A stretch of DNA of 64,000 bases from Punctularia strigosozonata HHB-11173 SS5. Taxonomy: Eukaryota; Basidiomycota; Agaricomycetes; Corticiales; Punctulariaceae. Made by a program: the position numbers and the translations under genes. How positions within the stretch are numbered: position 1 is the first letter of the stretch; each line of letters starts with the position of its first letter. Under the pieces are notes generated by a model. The model was not told the origin of the DNA. It saw only the letters and a program-made list of their open reading frames with translations, and made no database searches. The stretch is taken from the NCBI RefSeq assembly GCF_000264995.1, contig NW_006767442.1, forward strand, positions 405,894 to 469,893, given 5' to 3'. This document shows positions 43,762-58,531 of this stretch, one piece after another.

Positions 43762-46700
43762 TGCTTCGCATTGCACTGATATTTGCTTTTCTGGCCGCTG
43801 CGGGAACGCTGGCTCAACGTTCGATCCCTAACACATGGCCTCAAAATTACACTGGTATACCACGTGGGGACTACTCCCCTGAATGGCAGCACTGTAGGTG
43901 TCGTGACCAATGTCTCCGCGTATTCATGTTTATCGATATCCTTTTATGCAGACTTTGAGGTGAAAGGTGCACTACCGAACGTTACCAAACCGTTCGCCCC
44001 CCGGAGCTTTGCTGGCAACATCAAGGTCAACCGCCCGGGCCATGATAACGATACCCTGTTCTTCTGGGCCATCGAAAAAGAGCTAGGCTCGTTGACAGCT
44101 CCCGAAGTCGAGAGGAACGATAAACCCTGGTTGATCTGGCTCAACGGTGATTGCCATGATCCTTTCCCGCAACTTGAAGCAGCACGTAACCGATGAACAG
44201 GCGGCCCTGGGTCATCGAGCTTCCTTGGGTTCATGACGGAGGTTTTTACATTCTTACCAAGTCATCGAGATACTTCCGTAACACTTCATATGACAGAACG
44301 GACCCCTGCACGTCACCGCCGACTATTCGATTGTTGAGAACAAGTACAGCTGGGACAAGCTCGCCGACGCTATTTGGGTAGACCAGCCTGTTGGCACCGG
44401 CTTTTCCACGGCGGACACGACGGGATACAGTGCGTTCATCCACAGATTCGAGCCTACAATGATGATTGATACTCGTTGTCAGTTGCGGATGAGGATCAGA
44501 TGGGACAAGACTTCGTCAGAGTTTTGATGTTGCCAGCGATGGTACCTATCTGACCTGTTGCTTAGTTAGGATTCCTGTCAAATCTAGTCAAGGTGTTCCC
44601 AAGCCTGGCTAAAAGGCCGTTTTACCTCAGTAAGCCGTGATGTGTTTTTGAGTTCCCAGTATGTTGATTCAATCGTACTGTAGCCGGAGAGAGCTATGTC
44701 AGAAGCTTACGGTATTTCCCCTGAAAGCTAACTGACACCCACTGCAGGCCGGCACATATATCCCGTACATTACCAAGGCGATTTTTCAGAGGTAATCCTC
44801 CTTTAAGCAACGCGATAGAATACTGACGACGTACGCATTGCAGTCCCAAACCTCCCGTTAACCTCGTGAAATTCGCTATCGGTGATGGAGCTATAGGCGA
44901 TCTGGCAACTTTTGAAGAACTTCCTGCTGTGAGTCTTTGCGTTCAAGAATTTTACTGCAGTTCAGCAGAACAATATTGCGGCAGGTTCAATTAATCGAGA
45001 CGTACCCGCAATTGGTCAATTTTGACATTGATGTCCTGAACTATTTCAAGGAACAGTGAGCTATCTTCCATCTCTGTTATGATCGCCCAAATTCATCATA
45101 CCTCAACAGGCAGCATCTCTGCGGTTATGATCTGAACTTCACATATCCTCAGAATGGCCACTTCCCCACTCTGTTGGATCCGTTTGCAAGCGTCTCTAAT
45201 GACGATGCTATGAACGGCGCCTTCTTCTCTCGTGGGAGCTTCACTCTCCGCTCCGACTCCTGGCGGACTGCTATTGCTGAGCGATACGCTTCCCGAGCTA
45301 ACGCCGGAAAAATCGTTAAGCGCAAGCCAGAAGAACGTGAGATGGCGCGCCAAGCCTGGAAGCAAGAAAAGCGAGACCTCAGCCAAAGGGCCAATGGAAC
45401 CATCGATCCATGGTGAGATATCCTACGTAATGTCATTAGCAAGAATATTCAGCGACTTCCTAGGTACGGATGCTTCCTCTTGGACGAGCTGACTGGTAAG
45501 TAGTCCTTGACTCCGGTCTATGGAATCCCAACTGGACTGGTTTGCAGACTACGCGGTCAACTTCTCCTTCCCATGGACCCTCGGCGGGTTTGATGTATGT
45601 TGCTATGACCTGGACTCACCGGATGCACGTTGACGGCAAGCGCGTTTGCCGTCAGGTTTATGACATACCTGATGCGCTCAACCCGGAGGCTCCTTCCGAT
45701 CCTTCTGTCTTCTTGAACAGTGAGCATAGAGTCGTCCTGCATAAGGAGCCAATTACAAATGCGACCCGCAGATCACATCACACGATCGGCGTTGCACGCG
45801 CCAACCAGCAAGAACTGGACCTCCAGTTTCAATTATCCTTTCAATTCGAGTCGTGCTCAGAGTGAGCCTCTCCTTGTCTGTGTATATGTAACATTCTGAT
45901 ATGCGAATCATAAGTCCCTGGAGCCAACGAGTTCGGCGACCCAAGTGCGTAGTCTGCTCTATTGCATAGGTTCAAGTTCTCGTATTGACTAATTCGAAGG
46001 TGTACCGTATGACCAATATCCCCTGAAATAGTTGTGGTCACTGACCATTGAATGCAGGCCTATGGCTTTCTTGTCAGAACTTGCTGCGAATGCGAGTGCT
46101 CACCACGTTTCGATGGTGTTCTACTCCGGAAATGACGATGCGTTGGTTGCACATCGTGGAACTGAAGGTGAGTTGTCTCGTGCACGCTGAGATCAATTCT
46201 GTGCTGAGATCGACTTCCAGTCATCATTCAAGTAAGCTCGACAATGAGCTTTTCGCTGGAAGCGAGCACTTACGAACATTCTCACTGTATAGAACATGAC
46301 GTTCGGAGGTATACAAGGCTTTACCCGTGTGCCATCCACCCCATGGTTCGACGATGATGGGGTGCGTGCAGATGAGACCTGTAGGTGTCAGTTGTAAATG
46401 ACGCATCTCACACAGAACCTTGCCGGCATAGTACACCAAGAGCGCAACCTCGCCTATGTGCTTTTCATCGGCGCTGGACATCTAGTGCCGCAATGGAAAC
46501 CCGATGCTGTAAGACTCTTATTCTATCACGATCTGGTTTTCAGGGACGGATCATCTGGTTTTCACTGTTCAGGCATTTGTCTTCCTGCGCGAGTTCATTC
46601 TCGGATCGAACAAGACCGGTCTAGTTGTCGATCCGCATAAGCCTGCCATCGGCGGCGAAGATCCATCGATTGCGCCAGCTGATGTGATACCAGGCACGAC

Positions 46701-46833
46701 AGCGATCTTCTACGGCAGTGGAACAACAGTATCCAGCGCTCTTGTTGCCAGCGCAAGCATAGCCAGCTGGGAGAGCGTGGTTGTGCACGCGACCATCACG
46801 GCTGGTGCTCATGCCACTTCATTAGGGTTTTAG
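43762..46833 (+). CDS. Serine carboxypeptidase (peptidase family S10), secreted
   Basis: Secretory or vacuolar exopeptidase that removes C-terminal residues, most active at acid pH. The start MLRIALIFAFLAAAGTLAQR at 43762 is a signal peptide. The gene is cut by many short introns. The oxyanion region reads WLNGGPGSSSFLGF across an intron, the nucleophile is in GESYAGTYIPYI (two introns close by), the Asp in SGNDDALVAHRG, and the His in GAGHLVPQWKP. Other family runs are SWDKLADAIWVDQPVGTGFS and the NGPLHVTADYS strand. All three catalytic residues are therefore present. The C-terminal ~80 residues are Ser/Ala/Thr-rich and end in a mildly hydrophobic stretch, so a GPI anchor is possible but not clear. 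The stop is TAG at 46831-46833. The gene is convergent with the TPR-CHAT gene. Confidence 0.9.
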
Positions 46834-46999
46834 GTAGTAGACGGCAACGTGAATGGTAATCCGATGACTCGATGACAGGAAGTACTGGAATGCACTCGTA
46901 TTTCTGCAACACGCTTCAACCCCTTTACTTCCCCAATCCGTAGGCTTGACGAGGGAACAGTGATAACACTGCGCGAAGCCCTGTCCGGTGGACAGGCTA

Positions 47000-49900
47000 T
47001 CAAATTCCCAGATGAATATATGGTGCCCAGCGGGATGGCGCCCCCTGTGTTTGTCGTAGCTGTTGTACAGCCGCATCCAACGCATAAGGCACGACGTCGG
47101 GGTTCAGGGTTTGAGTTCCGCCCTTGAATAACTGTTCATAAACGTCCCTAGCAATCGCTGGGCCATCAACGTCTTCCATGGACCTGGAGAAGCACATCAT
47201 GGAGAAGACTCATTGAAGATAAATCAGAAAACCAACCACAGGGTTGCAATGACTGATTTGAAGCCTATAGACAGCATAGTAGCTGCAAGGTGAATAGTCT
47301 CGTCGGGTTGACCCTTTAAGATAACCGTAGATAGGCAGAGATTAGCATATATTCAAGGAGGTCCATTGTGATAGCCATACTTTGGCCCCTTGCGCCGTCT
47401 CACATGCACTCAGAAATGCAAGAAATGCCCGTGGCAAGGAGAGCCCTGTTAACTGGGAGATTGTAAGCAATCCATCGCGCAACACGAATCCATGCTCAAG
47501 TGGATCAGCCACGTCGTGGATGCCGTGACAAGCCAAATGGAGGATAGTTGTGTCAGGTAATTGTTCAAGTAAAGCGTCCACTGTTATACCGCCGCCCAAC
47601 GATGCGTCGTATTCTGGTCGCAGTGAAACGACATCTGATTGCGGTACAATGCGAAGAATCTCTTTCACCTCCTCCACAGTGCAAGGCAAGTCGCTCCAGG
47701 CGGTATTGAATGACGTTGGTGAAGCTGCCAGAAGTAATCTATTTTTCTCCAGGCCAAGAGACGCGTGAGTCCTTCGCGCTTCGAGAAGTGAGCTCAGTGT
47801 CGGGATATATGATGAAACAATGTAATTCCAGCAACCCGTTTGTGATGTTCCGGCCGCGTGGATAGGAAGATGAGCAAACTTTCCTGTTGGACACCACCAA
47901 ACTCGTGGACGAGCACGACCGCTTTTAGGCTGTTCGACGGATTGAGATACAGCTGATACCGGTCAGAAGGCATACTTAGTACTTACCTCTAGTCCCAAAG
48001 CGAAGAGGATAGGCCACACGACATTCGCCCATAGAGTGGCCAGAATGGCTTCGCATCCTCTAACCAAGGATGGTTTATCGTGTTTAGAAATTTGAAGCCT
48101 AGTCCGCAATGATGATCTCGCTGTTGTCACAGATCTGTGCCAGGCCTGGCTCGATTCCAGAAGCCATGTTTCGGTGATAGATGATAGAGGCAATATAATT
48201 CGACAAGACGGGTTAATGATAAGTGCGTGGCAAAACCGCGACGTCGAGACCAAGATAATCACAGGCCCCAACTTTGCCGCCGACATGAGCTCTTGGCAAC
48301 CTTCAGGTAACATGAATCGCTCTAGCCCAGGCAGGACGCGGATGTGACGAGAGAGTCTATCAAGATTCGCCATGTCCATTATCCTTCTGATTTGACGGAT
48401 CTCCTGTGGGATGTCAGGCGTTGATTGCCGCCAGGAATCCTCCCGCCGTAATCGAGCATGAAGGTTACGTATGCTTCGTCCTAGACCCTCTGGCAAGTTT
48501 TCAAACTGGTCGCGAAGCTGGGTTGCGAACGTCCAGAAGGCCGCACGACCTTGCTCAAGAAGTTCCAGAGCTATAGACGACTGGTTCATGGCTAAGGCAT
48601 GTGACGCTGCAGAAGTCGCAATGTGGCGGGCTTTCGCAAGCAGGCGGATGCGGGAGTGCCGTTCTAAGGCTAAGAACGCAATCCGCGGAAGTAGGCGGGT
48701 CGTTTTGCCGTAAGCTTCGAGAACGCGAGAGCGTGCCCATGGCGGAAGGCGACTGTACAGCTTGTCGACGCCTTCCAAAACAGGGATAGCGCGCGACAGA
48801 CGGACTAGAGGATTCAATAGAATATCTTCTCTGAGCGCATCCAAGAGATACTGCATCCCCCGAGCAACGTCGTGGAATGATGCCCCTTCCTCCAAGTGAA
48901 GATTAGCCAAAGAGAAGAGAATCCTGGCGCGGTGGCTATGATAAGGAGGCAAGGCGTCTAAAGCTTGGAGAAAGCACGCTTTTGATCGCACCGCGTCTGC
49001 TTGGTGTTTGCAGCAGCGGAATCTATGCATGTATACCTTCCCAATCAGGGATAATCGCTGCGATCTATGGGTGTAACCCTCGAGGGCGGGCTGCAACGAG
49101 ATCCATTCCAGTATGAATATGACAGCTTCGCCGTCCGAATGATGAGAAAGGCGAAGATAGCGGGCAGTTAGAATATCTGCCAGTGCCATCGTATATTTCC
49201 TTTGGGAGTCAATCCCTTGCCAAGCTAGCTGGAAAATCGTGGACTCGCCACTACTAGGCCGCCGCACGAAGGCTCCCTGGTGAACGTCGTTGATTGAGAG
49301 TGAGTCTATGGCTGGGGGAAGATGATCCATCAGCCGTGCTTCCTGTGAATCTTCAAGGTTCCCTTTCTCCACGAATCGTATAGTCAGGGTGTTCGCAAGG
49401 AGAATGCGGCATGCGTGAGAGTTCGAGACTAGATTCGATGAGCACATTCCGCGAATGAGAGATATAGCTTTGTCCAAGTCTTGTAACGAGCCAAACTCAG
49501 CGAAACGTAACTTGAGGGCCTCCGTCAACGTGTACATAATAAGCCACCGACGGGGGTGACCAGGTCCGCCCAGCTCAATGGCTTGCCCGAGCAGGCGGAC
49601 GACTTCATTGAGATCTTCGTGAGAACTGTAGTTGGTTTGACCAAACTGCACTACAGAACATGGTCCAGGTGTCAGGGGATGCAGCTCGGCTTCGCAAATC
49701 TCAGCATAGTGATCCAATCTGGCTCGCAGGCGAGGATGTCGATGGAGAAAAGAGGAGCGCCATTCATTGAATCTATCAATGAGGGCGTCGCAGTAGTGAC
49801 CGAGGATTTCCAGACTGTCATCCTCGAAAGAGGCGGAGATGAGTAATGCCCGACGGTGGTTCATGACGGCGTCCTCAAGATCGGCAAATAATCCTTTCTG

Positions 49901-50461
49901 CAGAAAACGCTGGCGAAGCGCTATCGCTAGTAAATGCATAGAGATACGGCGTTCTGGATCGTCAATTGAACATGATGCAATAGCCATTCGATGACACGCG
50001 ATGCCTTCCTCCAAGCAGTTTTCGGTCGGCGTTAATACGTGTTGGCGTCGGAGAGCGCGCCCCAGGACGTTCAATGCTTTGGATCGCGAGAGATGCAGAG
50101 CCGAAGCGTGTTCCAAGGCGAGCCTGGACAAATGTATGGCCTCCGCGAGATCAGGTATAAGCTCCCGTTCTTCGTAAGACAAGATCAGAAGTTCGGCGAG
50201 GGATACGGTGGCTTCGATGCGTTCTGAACAACGGGAATTGCAGGAGTCAAGAGCATCGCGCGCAGCCGCGAGGGCATCAATGAAATCTTGAATATCTCCC
50301 GTGCGCCAATACCGTCCGTCAACCGCTGCATCTCGAGGTTCACGGCTCTCCGATGTGTCGCTCGCATTCTTCCTCGAATCTTGGAAGTGAAAGTCACAGA
50401 AGGGTGAGATGCGGGCCGAGGTATCAGGAGTGTTAAAATCACTAGCTTGCCTGTTGAGCAA
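47000..50461 (-). CDS. TPR-CHAT protein (caspase-like protease domain)
   Basis: Four exons (50461-47987, 47929-47381, 47313-47238 or 47237, 47183-47000) join in phase to about 1094 residues. The N-terminal ~600 residues form helical repeats of TPR type (ALNVLGRALRRQH, YTLTEALKLRFAEFG, and similar). The C-terminal CHAT domain begins near RVWWCPTGKFAHLPIHAAG and carries the caspase-like dyad: His in TTILHLACHG and Cys in FLAFLSACETAQGAK. It ends with ETIHLAATMLSIGFKSVIATLW, then ARDVYEQLF. CHAT domains are caspase/separase-clan cysteine peptidases; TPR-CHAT proteins include separases and the Craspase subunit of type III-E CRISPR. Agaricomycetes carry many TPR-CHAT genes, presumed to act in self/non-self recognition or cell death, but the substrate is unknown. 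The start at 50461 is the first Met of the long frame; a short upstream exon cannot be excluded. There is no signal peptide. Confidence 0.9.
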
Positions 50462-51001
50462 CCGTCTTCGAGTGCATCTGCATAGATATGGTTCTGCTGG
50501 TTACATGAACTGAACATATGATCTTCAACGTTGAAATACGCCGAATATAGCTAAAGGTTGAGTTCAGCAATCTGTCGAAAGAGACCAGGAGCACAACGAC
50601 GAGAGCAATACGACCCTGCACAGCCTGGATCATGAACCGCAACAGGGATACGTCGTATAATTAGCATTAGGATCAGATCATGTTTCTGAATCCGAGCTAC
50701 TCATTCATGTTATGCTGGTTTCGGCCCTTATTATGGTAGAAGGTGGAGCGCGTCCAGAGCGCTTCATGAAGACAGCTGCATGTTCCTAGTTCCCTTCCTG
50801 TCCCCCATTTGAATCTGACTAAGCAGCCGCCACGCAGGCATTCTCGAGTTATCGGAGCAGGAGAATAAAGATGACATTAAAGGGCTACTGTTATGTGAGG
50901 GATAACATAGGATAGGTAGGATAATTAGATTATAATTAATAGTAATACAGAGCGAAGGTAACTTGTACGGAGCGGCGGAGCCTCATGTGTTCGATTTCGG
51001 G
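50462..51001. other. Intergenic, AT-richer
   Basis: Between the TPR-CHAT start and the transposase stop. AT-rich around 50880-50960. Fits the CHAT promoter plus the 3' flank of the transposon; no gene is recognised. Confidence 0.5.
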
Positions 51002-54000
51002 TCATGAAGCCGCTTGGGAAGGAAGAGTCCGGAAGTACATCGTATTATAGCTGCGCGAGCCCCATGTGTTAGGGTTCGGAGTGCGAGTGGAGTCCGTTCG
51101 CCGCTGTAGATCACGGAAATCGTCGATGAGGCCGAGTAAGGATGTGCCGCGCTGCTTCACAATCCGAAGAAACCGAGGGTCGCGGAACTGAGCGTTGTAT
51201 TGGATGGCCTCCACCAGATAAAGCAGATCTGAGGTTAGATGTTGAACCTCGAAATCAAAGGACTCCGCGAGATCCTGAAGCTCGTCGTCACCACCAGCCC
51301 AGATGGCCGCGTTCGGGTCACTGGAGAACGCGTCCGATGCGGACGAGTTTGGTATGTCGCTCGTTCCAGAATCAGATGGCGGCGGCGCGTCGGGCGGCGA
51401 ATACCCCGAATGCAAGCCTTCGTCGCGTCGAATTTCGGCATCCGTGTGCGGAGGTGCCAAGGGCTTCAGTAGCGGATGATGCCAGAACGGCAGAGTTCGA
51501 TTCCGCGATGCCTGGAGGAAGAACTGGGGAGGGACAGTGTGGCAAGCTTGAATGAGGTGCTTGCAAATGAGAAATCGGCTTGTTGCAAAGGCCGGACAGG
51601 TACAAACCCATCGGTACGCATCTGGGCTGTACTTCGGGTCGTCTGGGTTGCGAATATGTGCCGACTCGCACTTGCGCCACGCGCGCTTGAACGATTTTCG
51701 CCAGGAGGGTTGTTCACGATTGCGACCTGTCGGTTTGAGGTGTATGCTGAGGCGTCGCGTGTATGCAGGTACGAGCTTGTCAGTCAGAATCCATATGAGC
51801 AAGTCGATGCGAGGCTTGTGGAAGTGATGTAAGAAGTCCTTTTTGATCCGGCGCCAGCTGGCGAAAGACATGTTATATCGTCGTGCACCAAGGGCTGGCG
51901 AAGGACTCACTGGCTCTCGCAGATCATTGTTGTCTTCAGTCGGGGAATCAAGTTAAACTTGCTTCGAGCCCAGAGTCCCCAGCGCCCCGGTCGATACCAA
52001 TTACCCCACAAGTACGCCCAAAGTTCCCTCAACTCATGGCTGACGCAGAACGAATATACCTCCTTCACAGCCCACTCGCGAATCCCAGCTTCCGATGGCG
52101 CCGAGTAACCAGGGATCAAAGGATGTGCATGAAAATGCCGATCGACGAGCTTGAGGACTGAATCGTGCAACTCCTTTGGACAAAAGACGCGGCGTTGAGT
52201 TATTGATTCGGAATCTGAGATGGCGGCCAGTGTACTCGTTGTGTGGTCTTTGGGCGTGGGTTCGTTCAACGAGGCCAGCGTTGATTGAATGGAGCGAGGG
52301 ATGATGATTTTGACACGTAGTGAGTTGGCGCTTCTCCAGGCGGGAGTGAGTGCAGAACCCTCGACGCTCTCTGCACTGCCGCTCATAACCACCTCAGCGT
52401 CGCCCGTCTCTGCATCCACCTTCACTGCCAGGTCATCACCGCCGTGTAGCCCGTCCAGGTCACCTCCCTCGATATCGTTTGGATCCGAGTGGCTCTGAGG
52501 CACGAAGTTGAGGTCAATGAATGGAAACTCGCGTTTTGCTATTCGCGGGTCATAGGCAGTCGTTCGTAGGTTTCCTCCTAATCGAGTACGGATCGCCCGT
52601 CTGAGATGCCACCAACATAGTTGATTCTTTGAATATGGCCACTGCTCTTGTGCGGCCTTGATCTCTGCGATGTCTTTATCTGTGTGGACAAACTGTGGAT
52701 TGACACTATATCGGTCGCGCAGTGCACGTAAGAACTCGCTCAGCGCACGTTTGCGCTTGCCATTGCTGATTGCGGTTGCGGTTGACAATAAGCAATATGC
52801 CATGGGAAATCCAGCACCATCGACTTCGCCAAGGACCGAGTATAATTCAAGATCTTTGGCATTTGTGTTGTCTGGACGCGTGACTTTGAGACGGACTGAT
52901 ATTGATAGTACGTGTTGCTACTCACAGGTTGCATCCATGGCGACCTCCACCAGTGTCGCGCCAATTTTGGCTGCGATCTCCGGTAGACCCCACGCAAGGA
53001 TCGTAACACCATCATCAACCTGCAGATCCTCAAGGAGGTCGACACGGCCTTGCTCTTGGTACTCAGTGAGGAGCTCGCAACCCGACGTGAACTGATCATC
53101 CTGGCGTTTCCATAGGATCTCGCTCATGGTTGACCAAGCGCGATGGATTTGGTTCGGGGATACATATGGCCATCGTTCGTGTATGACTGAGACGAGTGCG
53201 TTTGGGATTGATGTGCGGAGATTGGCTCTGATGATGTCCAGGGCTTCCGGCGGCATATCAACCCGGTAATACGGTTGGTGCTTTGTGTGATGTTCAAACC
53301 GGACGCGGATATTGAGCTGACCACCGATGTGTTTGACGGCAATTTGCAGCCGACTGCGACAGTTGAACCTATCCATGCCAAGGTTGTCGCGTGGACGAGC
53401 ACCCTGTACCTTCCTAACCTTCTTAGCATGTCCGGCATCCTGGCTGCACCAGAATCGTGTCCGCCGGCCATGCTTCAACACAGTGTGGTCCCGAACACTG
53501 CCGTTACATGTTTTGAGCACCCAACAGACAACGCGGCGGAGCCAGTTCACGTACGTGAATCGGTAACCAGTTGCTGCCCATATATTCTCTTGTACTTCTC
53601 GCACCCGCTCATAGTCACGCCACAGTGGATCATCGGTTATCACATATTGACCCGCAAAGTCGACATCACTGGCATCTTTGCAACTCGTCTTCAATGCCTG
53701 TAGCATGCTGTATGAACTCTCGTATGACTTGTACTCCGTCTCTGCTACCAACGTCTCGCTGGCCACCTGCCGTGAGTCAGTGAACCGTTGACAAAGATAG
53801 GGGCTGTCATGTACCCGAGCTCGCTTTGCTATAGGCTCACCAGACTCCGCACCACTGTCGTCACCCTCTGTGTCCAGCACTATCGGCTCGTCCCTGCTTC
53901 CCGCAGATATCTGTGCTCCTTGTTGGACAGGCGATGGCTGACGGCATCCAGGCGCCTTCTCTTTTGCCTTCTGTTTGCGTTTGGACTCGCGACTGGAGGC

Positions 54001-54177
54001 TCGATGCTTTATGCATGTTTTCCATCGATATTCCGCTTCAGGAGGAAGTTGACTGTTGCAACCCGAAGACGAGCATTTACGCGGCGTCCCTGCACTGGCC
54101 TGTGTGATGGATGATATAGGCTGAGCCTGGAGCACCTGTTGAAGATTTCTAATGGAATCCAATGCTTTGGGATCCAT
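51002..54177 (-). CDS. MULE-type transposase with SWIM zinc finger
   Basis: DDE transposase of the Mutator-like superfamily. Three exons (54177-52926, 52871-51911, 51857-51002) join in phase to about 1022 residues, so the gene looks translatable. The N-terminus has a Cys-rich run (CSSSGCNSQLPPEAEYRWKTC) and Lys/Arg-rich sequence. The catalytic region has the first Asp in VAMDATYNTNAKDLELYS (made across an intron), the second in FVHTDKDIAEIKA, the CWWHLRRAI motif, and a candidate Glu region near REWAVKEVYSFCVSHELREL. A SWIM finger (YRWVCTCPAFATSRFLICKH) lies near the C-terminus, followed by a disordered acidic/Pro tail. Splicing at the first intron (donor at 52925) is needed to read past the Asp motif. 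Domestication is possible but unproven. Confidence 0.88.
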
Positions 54178-54667
54178 CCGAGGGGAGACAGGGGTTCACA
54201 ACGGGAGTTCGAGTGCAACGGCGGAGAGCCTCAGAAACGTTTGGGATGGCATGTTTCAACCATTTCCTCAATTTATTATATTTTGTACATTTTACTTGCT
54301 ACACCATGCGAGGCAAAGCCCTGCATGAAGGCATCGTCGGCCGGGATCAGGCTGAAGTGAGATAAGACTGAAGACAGGATTGACCGTGGGAAATGATTGG
54401 TCAGATTCAAATGGGGGACAGGTGGAGACGCTCATGTTCCAGCCACGCAGGAGGGGCGTCAAAATTATTGCCGGCGCCGGGTGGCCGTGGAAACCCACAC
54501 ACCGCGCGCGAGGTCTCCCGGAAATTCCGTGTGCCCTCAATCCCCATATGCTGCCTCTGCGTGGTTCCCAAGCCTCGAGATAGCATGGACATACTACATA
54601 TAAGAGCTTACGGCGCACTCGTCCACACAAGTCGATCCAAGATATCTGTACGTCCAGCCGAATCCCA
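54178..54667. other. Intergenic, transposase 5' side and formamidase promoter
   Basis: Divergent region between the transposase start and the formamidase start. ORFs inside overlap in all frames and lack recognisable content. Confidence 0.45.
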
Positions 54668-56292: not shown

Positions 56293-58531
56293 TTATACTA
56301 GTGTAGCTTGGGAAAGATGGCGGCGAAGAAGACCCTCGCGAACTGTTTTGGTGCATAAGTATGACCATACGGAGCAGGTAAACTACACGACCGACCTTCC
56401 AGGAGGATGATCCGGGTATTTGTAGCATTGACGACGGACGTCTCATGACAGAAGAAAGGACGGTTCTTGTTAGACAGGCGTTTATGGTAGGCCATAAACC
56501 TGTCCTTGAAATCTGAAATTACATGCGGAATTAACAACAAGCACGATCGACGGCATCGTGGAACATACATTTCACCACGTATGGCAGTTCGTTAGGTTGG
56601 TCTCCGAAGCTCGGAACGTATCGCTTGACCTGGACGCCTGCCTTGAGGGTCTCGTCCAAGATGTCCATCTTGTTCAGGAACAGGATCAAGGTGGCCTTTG
56701 CGATGAGCGGGTTGGCGCAGACGGCTTTCCACAGGGTCACGGAGTCCTCCAACCGATTCACGAGAGGGTCTTCCTCCAGCATCAAGTTGAACGCGAGTGG
56801 CGCAAGGAAGATGATCGCCTGCACGTCGTCGAAGAACGGGACCCACGAGGCCCGCAAGCTTCGGCTTCCACCAACGTCGTAAATGTACCATTCACTGCCT
56901 GTCTTGGCGTTCACGTCGTCTATCACCGTCCCCCAGCTTAGTCCGGTTGAGGGTACAAATGTCCCGCGACTCGTACCAGACTCCACGGTGAAGCGATGCT
57001 CTTCGACGCCCAACGTTCGTACACGCGCTCGTAAAACGTCCGCCTCCGTCGGCTCATAGTCCACCGTCGCTATTCGCGCCACGTCGTCCAAGAAACTGAC
57101 AGGACAATTATTCTCTTGGCTGATGACGAGATCCAACTGGGTGCTTACAAGCCTGGCATCTCCCGTAGCCGAACGCCCCATTTCTTGAGCACTTGCTGCA
57201 CATTCGGATCTTCCCATAGAGAAACGATATCGTCCTTGCACTGCGCGAGCGCCATGGTCGGATCGTCCCGATTGCCGGTGACAGGACGGGAGCCCTTCCT
57301 CACCCGCTCCTTCTCCGACGGTTCACTCCATTCGTCGGAGCCAGAGAAGCTGCTCGTGTCGGAAGACGTGCGAGTATGCAGCTGGTTGCCCGTCGCCTTG
57401 GTCAAAATCCCCTTCCAGCCGCTACCCGCCCGAACGCAGACTTCCTGAACCGATCGCCTGCGGGTGGAGCTTACCCCTTCGGAGTTGGCTTGGGTCGCAT
57501 TGCTGTACGTGTACGAGGTGGTAGTCGCAGCAAGACTTCCATGTTCCGAAATGGACGGCATGAGCTTGCGTGTGAGGGTTTGCTCGATCGAAATCAGTGG
57601 CGACAGCCGCATGCGTATCCGTCGATGATCATCGTTCAACCACCGCGTCGCGCTCCTCGGTCGGCCTTGCGGAGGCGATCCAGATATCGACTGGCCATGT
57701 GAGCTCCACGGCGGATGCGGATATTGTCGGTGAGTCGGCGAATGCTGCAGCGACTGATACGAATCAAGCTCATTCTGAATCACGTCCAGCAGGTTCTTGA
57801 TTGATCTGAGAAAGACATTATCGCCATCAGCCCGAGGTCGGAGGGGAGAGGTCGGTCGCCATGCGCCGCCACGCCATCACGACGCGGCCTGACGTCGACG
57901 GTTCGAACGGAGGTTTCACATACCGGATAAGGTTAAGTTGTATGACCGTTTTCCACGCTGCCCTTTCCCGCCGGAAGTGGTTAGGAGCGAAGACGAGCTG
58001 GAAATCTGGGGAACGATCTCAGCACACGACATCGGCCCGGCGCAGATTCAAGGATAAGGACGAACTCCGTAGCGTGGTGCTCTTGCCGGATTCGGACTGG
58101 CCTATAATGAAGAGACAGCCACTAGATTCAGCGAGATTCGAGGGGAAGGAAAGCCAACAGTTTGTGCACCCACCGAGCAACAAGAGTTTGGTGGCCTTGC
58201 GCTTCCTGTCCAGCGCCTTCTTGTCCTCTGCTATAGCGGCATCGATTTCCTTGGAGATCCGCAGAGCTTCCTGCTGGGCCTCGATCCTCCTCGTTTGCTC
58301 TTCAGGCGTCTCGCCCGGTGGTGGACGCAAAAAATAAGAAAGCGGATCATCATATCGGTCGGCGTAGGTGACCGTGGTCACTCGGCCGTGCGACCTGGTG
58401 GTCATCGATCGGGGGGAGGGAGGGTATATGGGTGCGGCGGAGGAGGAGGAGGAGGGGATGTCGTTCGGACGCGATGGGCCAGGGTTGTGTGGTATTTGAG
58501 TGACATGTCCGCTCAGGAGCGCTTGTTTCAA
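56293..58531 (-). CDS. Heterotrimeric G-protein alpha subunit, large non-canonical class
   Basis: GTP-binding signal transducer at the plasma membrane. Seven exons (58531-58174, 58101-58066, 58005-57924, 57805-57149, 57095-56569, 56512-56396, 56342-56293) join in phase to about 608 residues, against ~355 in canonical subunits. The P-loop is GQSESGKST, where most G-alphas have GAGESGKST. Then NFQLVFAPNHFRRERAAW and VIQLNLIR; a ~200-residue Ser/Thr/Arg-rich insertion (about 57750-57220) within the helical domain; FFLDDVARIA; switch I RARVRTLGVEEHRF; switch II YDVGGSRSLRASWVPFFDD, with Ser in place of the catalytic Gln; LILFLNKMDIL; and the C-terminus VREGLLRRHLSQATLV. The N-terminus lacks a myristoylation Gly, and the C-terminus lacks the toxin-modified Cys. 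The start may be 58531 or the in-frame Met at 58405. These expanded G-alphas are typical of basidiomycetes. Confidence 0.93.

Follow-up and report, generated by a model that had tools for sequence, protein, structure and literature searches.

The fungus Punctularia strigosozonata HHB-11173 SS5, a basidiomycete in the order Corticiales, carries a gene for a CHAT-domain protein within the 64,000-nucleotide stretch analyzed here (the window; contig C10, 405894-469893, in a genome of 33.6 Mb and 32 contigs). The questions it raises are what kind of protease the gene encodes, how that protease might be switched on, and whether anything sets this copy apart from its paralogues. TPR-CHAT proteins and their kin join bacterial CRISPR-controlled proteolysis, eukaryotic separase, and the control of cell death in ascomycetes. 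The family kind is already known, with cell-death precedents in other fungi, and the window gene adds one member to it.

The window CHAT gene and its surroundings

The gene was modeled on the minus strand with four exons. An earlier, sequence-only reading of this DNA had placed it at 47000-50461, which is correct: the lower limit is the stop codon in the final exon, and the upper limit is where the long open frame begins. The parts of the gene are listed below.

47000..50461, minus strand: TPR-CHAT protease gene, four exons, coding span with the long open frame through to the stop (gene model and Pfam CHAT)
47987..50461, minus strand: exon 1, TPR-like arm and linker, 825 codons, open (gene model, repeat profile)
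47381..47929, minus strand: exon 2, catalytic core with His960 and Cys1001, in which His963 and His971 replace Gln and Ser (gene model, alignment)
47237..47313, minus strand: exon 3, CHAT domain, GQPDETIHLAATMLSIGFKSVIATLW (gene model, alignment to P0003)
47000..47183, minus strand: exon 4, the last, CHAT domain, ending in WAPYIHLGI and the stop codon (gene model, alignment to P0003)
50463..50517, minus strand: possible first coding exon with an ATG (proposed from reading the sequence; supported by no homologue compared)

Exon 1 runs for 2,475 nt without interruption, and the gene model places three GT-AG introns of 57, 67, and 53 nt in the gene. The junctions at introns 2 and 3 coincide with breaks in the CHAT profile, at about positions 211-212 and 238-239, in other loci (L011, L014, L016, L019, and L020 among them), and in some, L001 and L004 included, the profile is split at the last junction only (about 238-239). 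The profile match in the genome ends at position 204 of 289, where an intron interrupts it, and a CHAT domain cut off after exon 2 could be ruled out, since the joined exons carry the profile on to its end. The C-terminal 299 residues were aligned to P0003, a paralogue in the same genome (the translation of its locus matches it at 97% over 708 columns, a stretch translated straight through an intron, and at 100% over 62). This alignment gave 163 identities in 294 columns (55%) and three gapped columns, none of them at an exon junction, and the window protein is collinear with P0003 up to the final residues SRWAPYIHLGI. The window CHAT gene is real, and it is complete save for its start.

The start codon is unsettled. 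The earliest in-frame ATG within the long frame lies at 49987. The putative upstream exon (50517-50463), recognized by reading, would supply an ATG and needs an 83-nt intron (50462-50380) with a weak donor (GTTGCT).

Three other features flank the gene:

about 50787-54432, upstream of the CHAT gene: MULE DNA transposon, its 38-nt terminal inverted repeats matching at 84%, flanked by an 8-bp repeat, CATGTTCC
56531-57241, minus strand: piece of a G-protein alpha subunit gene (2.3e-47), beyond the MULE element
43780-46840, plus strand: serine carboxypeptidase (S10) in pieces (best 6.1e-12), downstream and converging on the CHAT gene

The MULE domain scores just above the cut-off, and a DNA search found no second match to the element in the genome. 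About 270 bp separate its near end from the possible ATG downstream, and the element lies outside the coding span. We considered whether the element had split the gene, stranding beyond it the N-terminal module that some paralogues have, and rejected this for lack of support. When 14 paralogue N-termini were compared with the 64 kb, there was no convincing match, and the best (E 3.1e-4) fell within the repeat arm of the window gene itself.

Two protein searches (with size windows of about 600-1,900 and 450-1,440 residues) returned no near-identical protein, so the gene seems to be absent from public protein sets or annotated there at another size. Among the best 120 of 580 matches, the highest identities were 46% over part and 34-36% over most of the window protein; two metagenome proteins showed 40% identity over its arm.

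The CHAT domain and its catalytic dyad

CHAT (PF12770) is the sole domain that Pfam reports in the window protein, covering residues 815-1093 and profile positions 7-288 of 289 (E 1.5e-35, 123.5 bits, cut-off 24). Exon 2 holds both motifs, HLACHG and SACETAQG, with the His960 codon at 47527-47525 and the Cys1001 codon at 47404-47402. That they form an intact dyad had been proposed from the letters of the DNA, and the alignment confirms it: neither column varies in any of the 120 rows, made up of the window protein and 119 homologous CHAT domains, which are best-scoring and hence biased toward likeness. These homologues come from the best 120 of 580 matches at E<=0.001, with P0016 left out for want of the CHAT part. 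Such invariance argues that the dyad is no chance motif.

The numerous fungal copies mentioned in the sequence-only reading are borne out by this genome, where a profile search with PF12770 gave 80 matches, part of them exon pieces or fragments. Among these, 39 distinct loci were readable (26 best-scoring places and 13 from 16 lower-ranked ones, the other three being repeats). Both dyad residues are kept in 38 of the 39, the window copy included, and in the remaining locus, L044, the His column is not alignable. An intact dyad is therefore the rule in this family and no mark of the window copy.

The gene product is almost certainly a cysteine protease of the TPR-CHAT type, belonging to the separase/caspase clan; we predict its activity from the dyad and the fold. 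In a structure model of exon 2, the Cys falls in the cut end, where prediction is poor (block pLDDT 50). An assignment of P1 specificity by analogy to separase was dropped, as the aligned position is uncertain and lies beyond the alignment ends. PADLOC returned nothing for P0003 or for the CHAT part.

The N-terminal arm

Ahead of the protease, about 600 residues of TPR-like repeats had been described from the sequence, a description that the sequence bears out only in part. Pfam found no TPR in the window protein, and TRF found no tandem repeat in the DNA of the gene. A repeat profile built from homologues detected two strong units (171-206 and 305-338) and several weak ones in the window arm, and twelve regular units in a homologue from Galerina that contributed repeats to it; a profile of this origin favors the homologues over the window protein. 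The structure model of the paralogue P0003 predicts a long helical-hairpin solenoid. As judged from the repeat profile and this model, the window protein has a TPR-then-CHAT architecture in which the TPR repeats are degenerate.

Comparison with known systems

Architecture and dyad are common to the window protein and to basidiomycete paralogues annotated as 'CHAT domain-containing protein', with 580 proteins matching at E<=0.001; the window copy is unlike these TPR-CHAT relatives in having His963, His971, and degenerate TPR repeats. The order of TPR before CHAT, the separase-clan fold, and the likeness to the TPR-CHAT protein of Craspase, all suggested by the sequence-only reading, are supported by Pfam, by the alignment, and by the P0003 model, whose predicted arrangement of arm, linker, and protease resembles that of Craspase TPR-CHAT (Csx29) and of separase. 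Craspase has gRAMP/Cas7-11 and a guide RNA, whereas the window protein is eukaryotic and its trigger cannot be such a guide RNA complex. Membership in a CRISPR system was rejected because RAMP (PF03787) had no match in the genome at E<=0.01, in a search that matched 4 of 14 control genomes. We also rejected the possibility that the window gene is the separase of this genome: the window protein has no Peptidase_C50 match, and the separase is a separate gene on another contig (C7:149343-150628, Peptidase_C50 7.4e-88).

The Podospora anserina TPR-CHAT protein and Aspergillus fumigatus hetB are fungal CHAT proteins like that of the window but come from ascomycetes, and were compared by description only. 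Their study makes it too strong to call the fungal copies 'essentially uncharacterised', as the sequence-only reading did. The TPR-bearing CHAT protease of P. anserina is reported to activate a gasdermin, and the trigger of such pathways is named a major open question (PMC12881547), while hetB, a CHAT gene with one allele of 1,327 residues, was tested by expression as an incompatibility determinant (PMC11138114). PMC11138114 gives the target of hetB as unknown and reports that window-based Tajima's D showed no balancing selection. Basidiomycetes are rich in CHAT proteins, and our search of the literature on CHAT in basidiomycetes or Punctularia found no functional test of a basidiomycete CHAT protein.

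A candidate TPR-gated protease

We consider it probable that the window protein is a TPR-gated protease. By analogy to Craspase and separase, the TPR arm would be the sensor: as long as the arm has no partner bound, arm and linker would hold the protease off and its active site shut. The binding signal would pass via the linker, the route taken in Craspase by the signal from target RNA. There, according to PMC9729208, the dyad of the inactive TPR-CHAT protein is about 7 Å apart and comes to about 3 Å upon binding of non-self RNA, via the linker. Once activated, the protease would cut the product of a gene located elsewhere in the genome. Taken jointly, TPR-CHAT identity, gating by the TPR arm, and a substrate encoded at an unlinked locus make up a reading that we favor slightly. 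The least sure step is the setting, which may be regulated cell death or non-self recognition. We regard such a role as a fair-sized possibility short of a probable one, raised because the tested fungal TPR-CHAT protein and CHAT gene act there and because paralogue arms change faster than the protease. Nothing marks the window copy out from its paralogues for a role of this kind.

The difference in rate was measured on four recent paralogues (L014, L016, L018, and L019), a set to which the window gene does not belong. Pooled pN/pS was 0.51 for the TPR arm (bootstrap 0.42-0.61) and 0.26 for both the linker (0.16-0.40) and the CHAT exon (0.13-0.46), and the arm minus CHAT difference was 0.04-0.41, with no value shown to exceed 1. 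Pairwise dN/dS ranged over 0.36-0.56 in the arm and 0.22-0.31 in the CHAT exon. Arm codons 150-299, a stretch picked post hoc, reached a pN/pS of 0.99 (0.68-1.51). An arm that changes faster than the protease is as expected for a sensor fused to an enzyme.

Several observations weaken the reading of a gated protease with an unlinked substrate. No neighbor gene recurred in the window and 16 other CHAT loci, and no PF04598 gasdermin was found, unlike in most ascomycete gasdermin-protease pairs; two near-invariant residues are changed beside the catalytic His; the gene has no settled start codon, and a search of the 64 kb did not find the N-terminal module that some paralogues have. The Cys lies in the poorly predicted end of the exon-2 model, and the four-paralogue test was made without the window gene.

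Alternative readings of the locus

The changed residues bear on the alternative that survives best, although we still think it unlikely: that this is a decaying copy, a birth-and-death paralogue with an open frame and little or no function. Position 963 is Gln in 111 of 120 rows and position 971 is Ser in 116 of 120; the window protein carries His in each case, a residue that stands at neither position in any other row. The Craspase TPR-CHAT chains compared have Ser, rather than the His of the window protein, at the place aligned to 971. The only other departures among the loci of the genome are His at 963 and Gly at 971 in L043 and Arg at 971 in L038; these two copies are without the first half of the CHAT profile. 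In the tree of CHAT domains, the window protein has a long end branch (0.56 versus a median of 0.23). Its placement beside three non-Punctularia proteins (from Somion occarium, Irpex rosettiformis, and one further) is weakly supported (SH-aLRT 80). The enclosing set of 41 rows (support 99) comprises every one of the 28 Punctularia rows plus 13 others. Decay would also fit the lack of a settled ATG, a MULE element lying beside the promoter, and the lack of a match near 100% in public protein sets at the sizes searched. Against it stand the long open frame of exon 1, the GT-AG introns at the places usual in the family, a C-terminus kept to its last residues, and the position of the MULE element outside the coding span. 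At least two departures across 40 conserved columns are found in 37 of 120 rows, so that the count for the window protein is ordinary and only the places are unique. Two departures being common in number, the histidines at 963 and 971 may reflect re-tuning, drift, or nothing.

Less likely again is that the gene is half of a gasdermin switch as in the ascomycete pairs, with a gasdermin that is unlinked or too divergent to recognize. The P. anserina protease, which pairs with an adjacent gasdermin, is the precedent (PMC12881547), and PMC10197012 reports that about 80% of the gasdermin genes in fungi form a cluster with a protease gene and that 19% have a CHAT gene no more than 10 kb away. No gasdermin was seen by the window gene, whose neighbors are the serine carboxypeptidase, the MULE element, and the G-alpha gene piece. 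A search with PF04598 found no candidate in the genome and no such neighbor in the window, a weak negative because fungal gasdermins are divergent and this profile is poor for them. The abstract of PMC12881547 describes executioner proteins of this kind as abundant 'particularly in Ascomycota'. No neighbor gene recurred across the window and 16 other CHAT loci of 10 kb each, a search whose flanks were mostly 2-6 kb per side and from which ORFs shorter than 60 residues or split by introns would escape. Each of the 60 ORFs in the recurrent clusters overlaps the CHAT gene span of the locus it comes from, which makes them antisense or shifted frames of the CHAT gene.

A regulated protease of an ordinary process (development, growth, or the cell cycle), with no part in immunity or cell death, is improbable: separase, of the same clan and fold, is no immune enzyme, and neither the neighbor search nor the PF04598 search found a cell-death partner, but the separase of this genome is already a separate gene, and 80 CHAT matches versus two of caspase family C14, together with the faster-changing arm, look more like a recognition family.

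The wider CHAT repertoire of the genome

Returning to the gated protease, we find the window copy to be an ordinary member of a large family, and only its two odd residues set it above its paralogues. Alone it is of modest value, these residues being its only distinction. A broader proposal, which we put forward as speculative and doubtful, is that sensor proteases of an all-in-one kind make up an expanded repertoire in this genome, each with a fast-changing TPR receptor and a conserved separase-like protease, acting on unlinked substrates with no adjacent gasdermin, and that the window copy was re-tuned by its two histidines. If true, such sensor proteases would combine in a single chain the tasks that animals divide between a receptor and a caspase. 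With its 80 CHAT matches and two caspase-family matches, this wood-decay fungus would be a workable place to ask what CHAT proteins sense and cut.

NACHT gave 23 matches in the genome, 18 of them over the cut-off, and six NACHT matches lie within about 150 kb of contig C2 (375644-526757), one of them with a reported open frame 5,954 residues long. Contig C14 carries five CHAT loci in about 130 kb (738695-866459), close paralogues among them, within the last 160 kb of the 896-kb contig; this cluster is possibly subtelomeric. On the same contig, L018 (G000:C14:794675-799372) contains the His/Cys stretch twice, as a full copy and a partial copy downstream, with the dyad in both. P0020 (PUNSTDRAFT_130833) is annotated with alpha/beta-hydrolase domains ahead of CHAT, representing either a fusion or a merged gene model.
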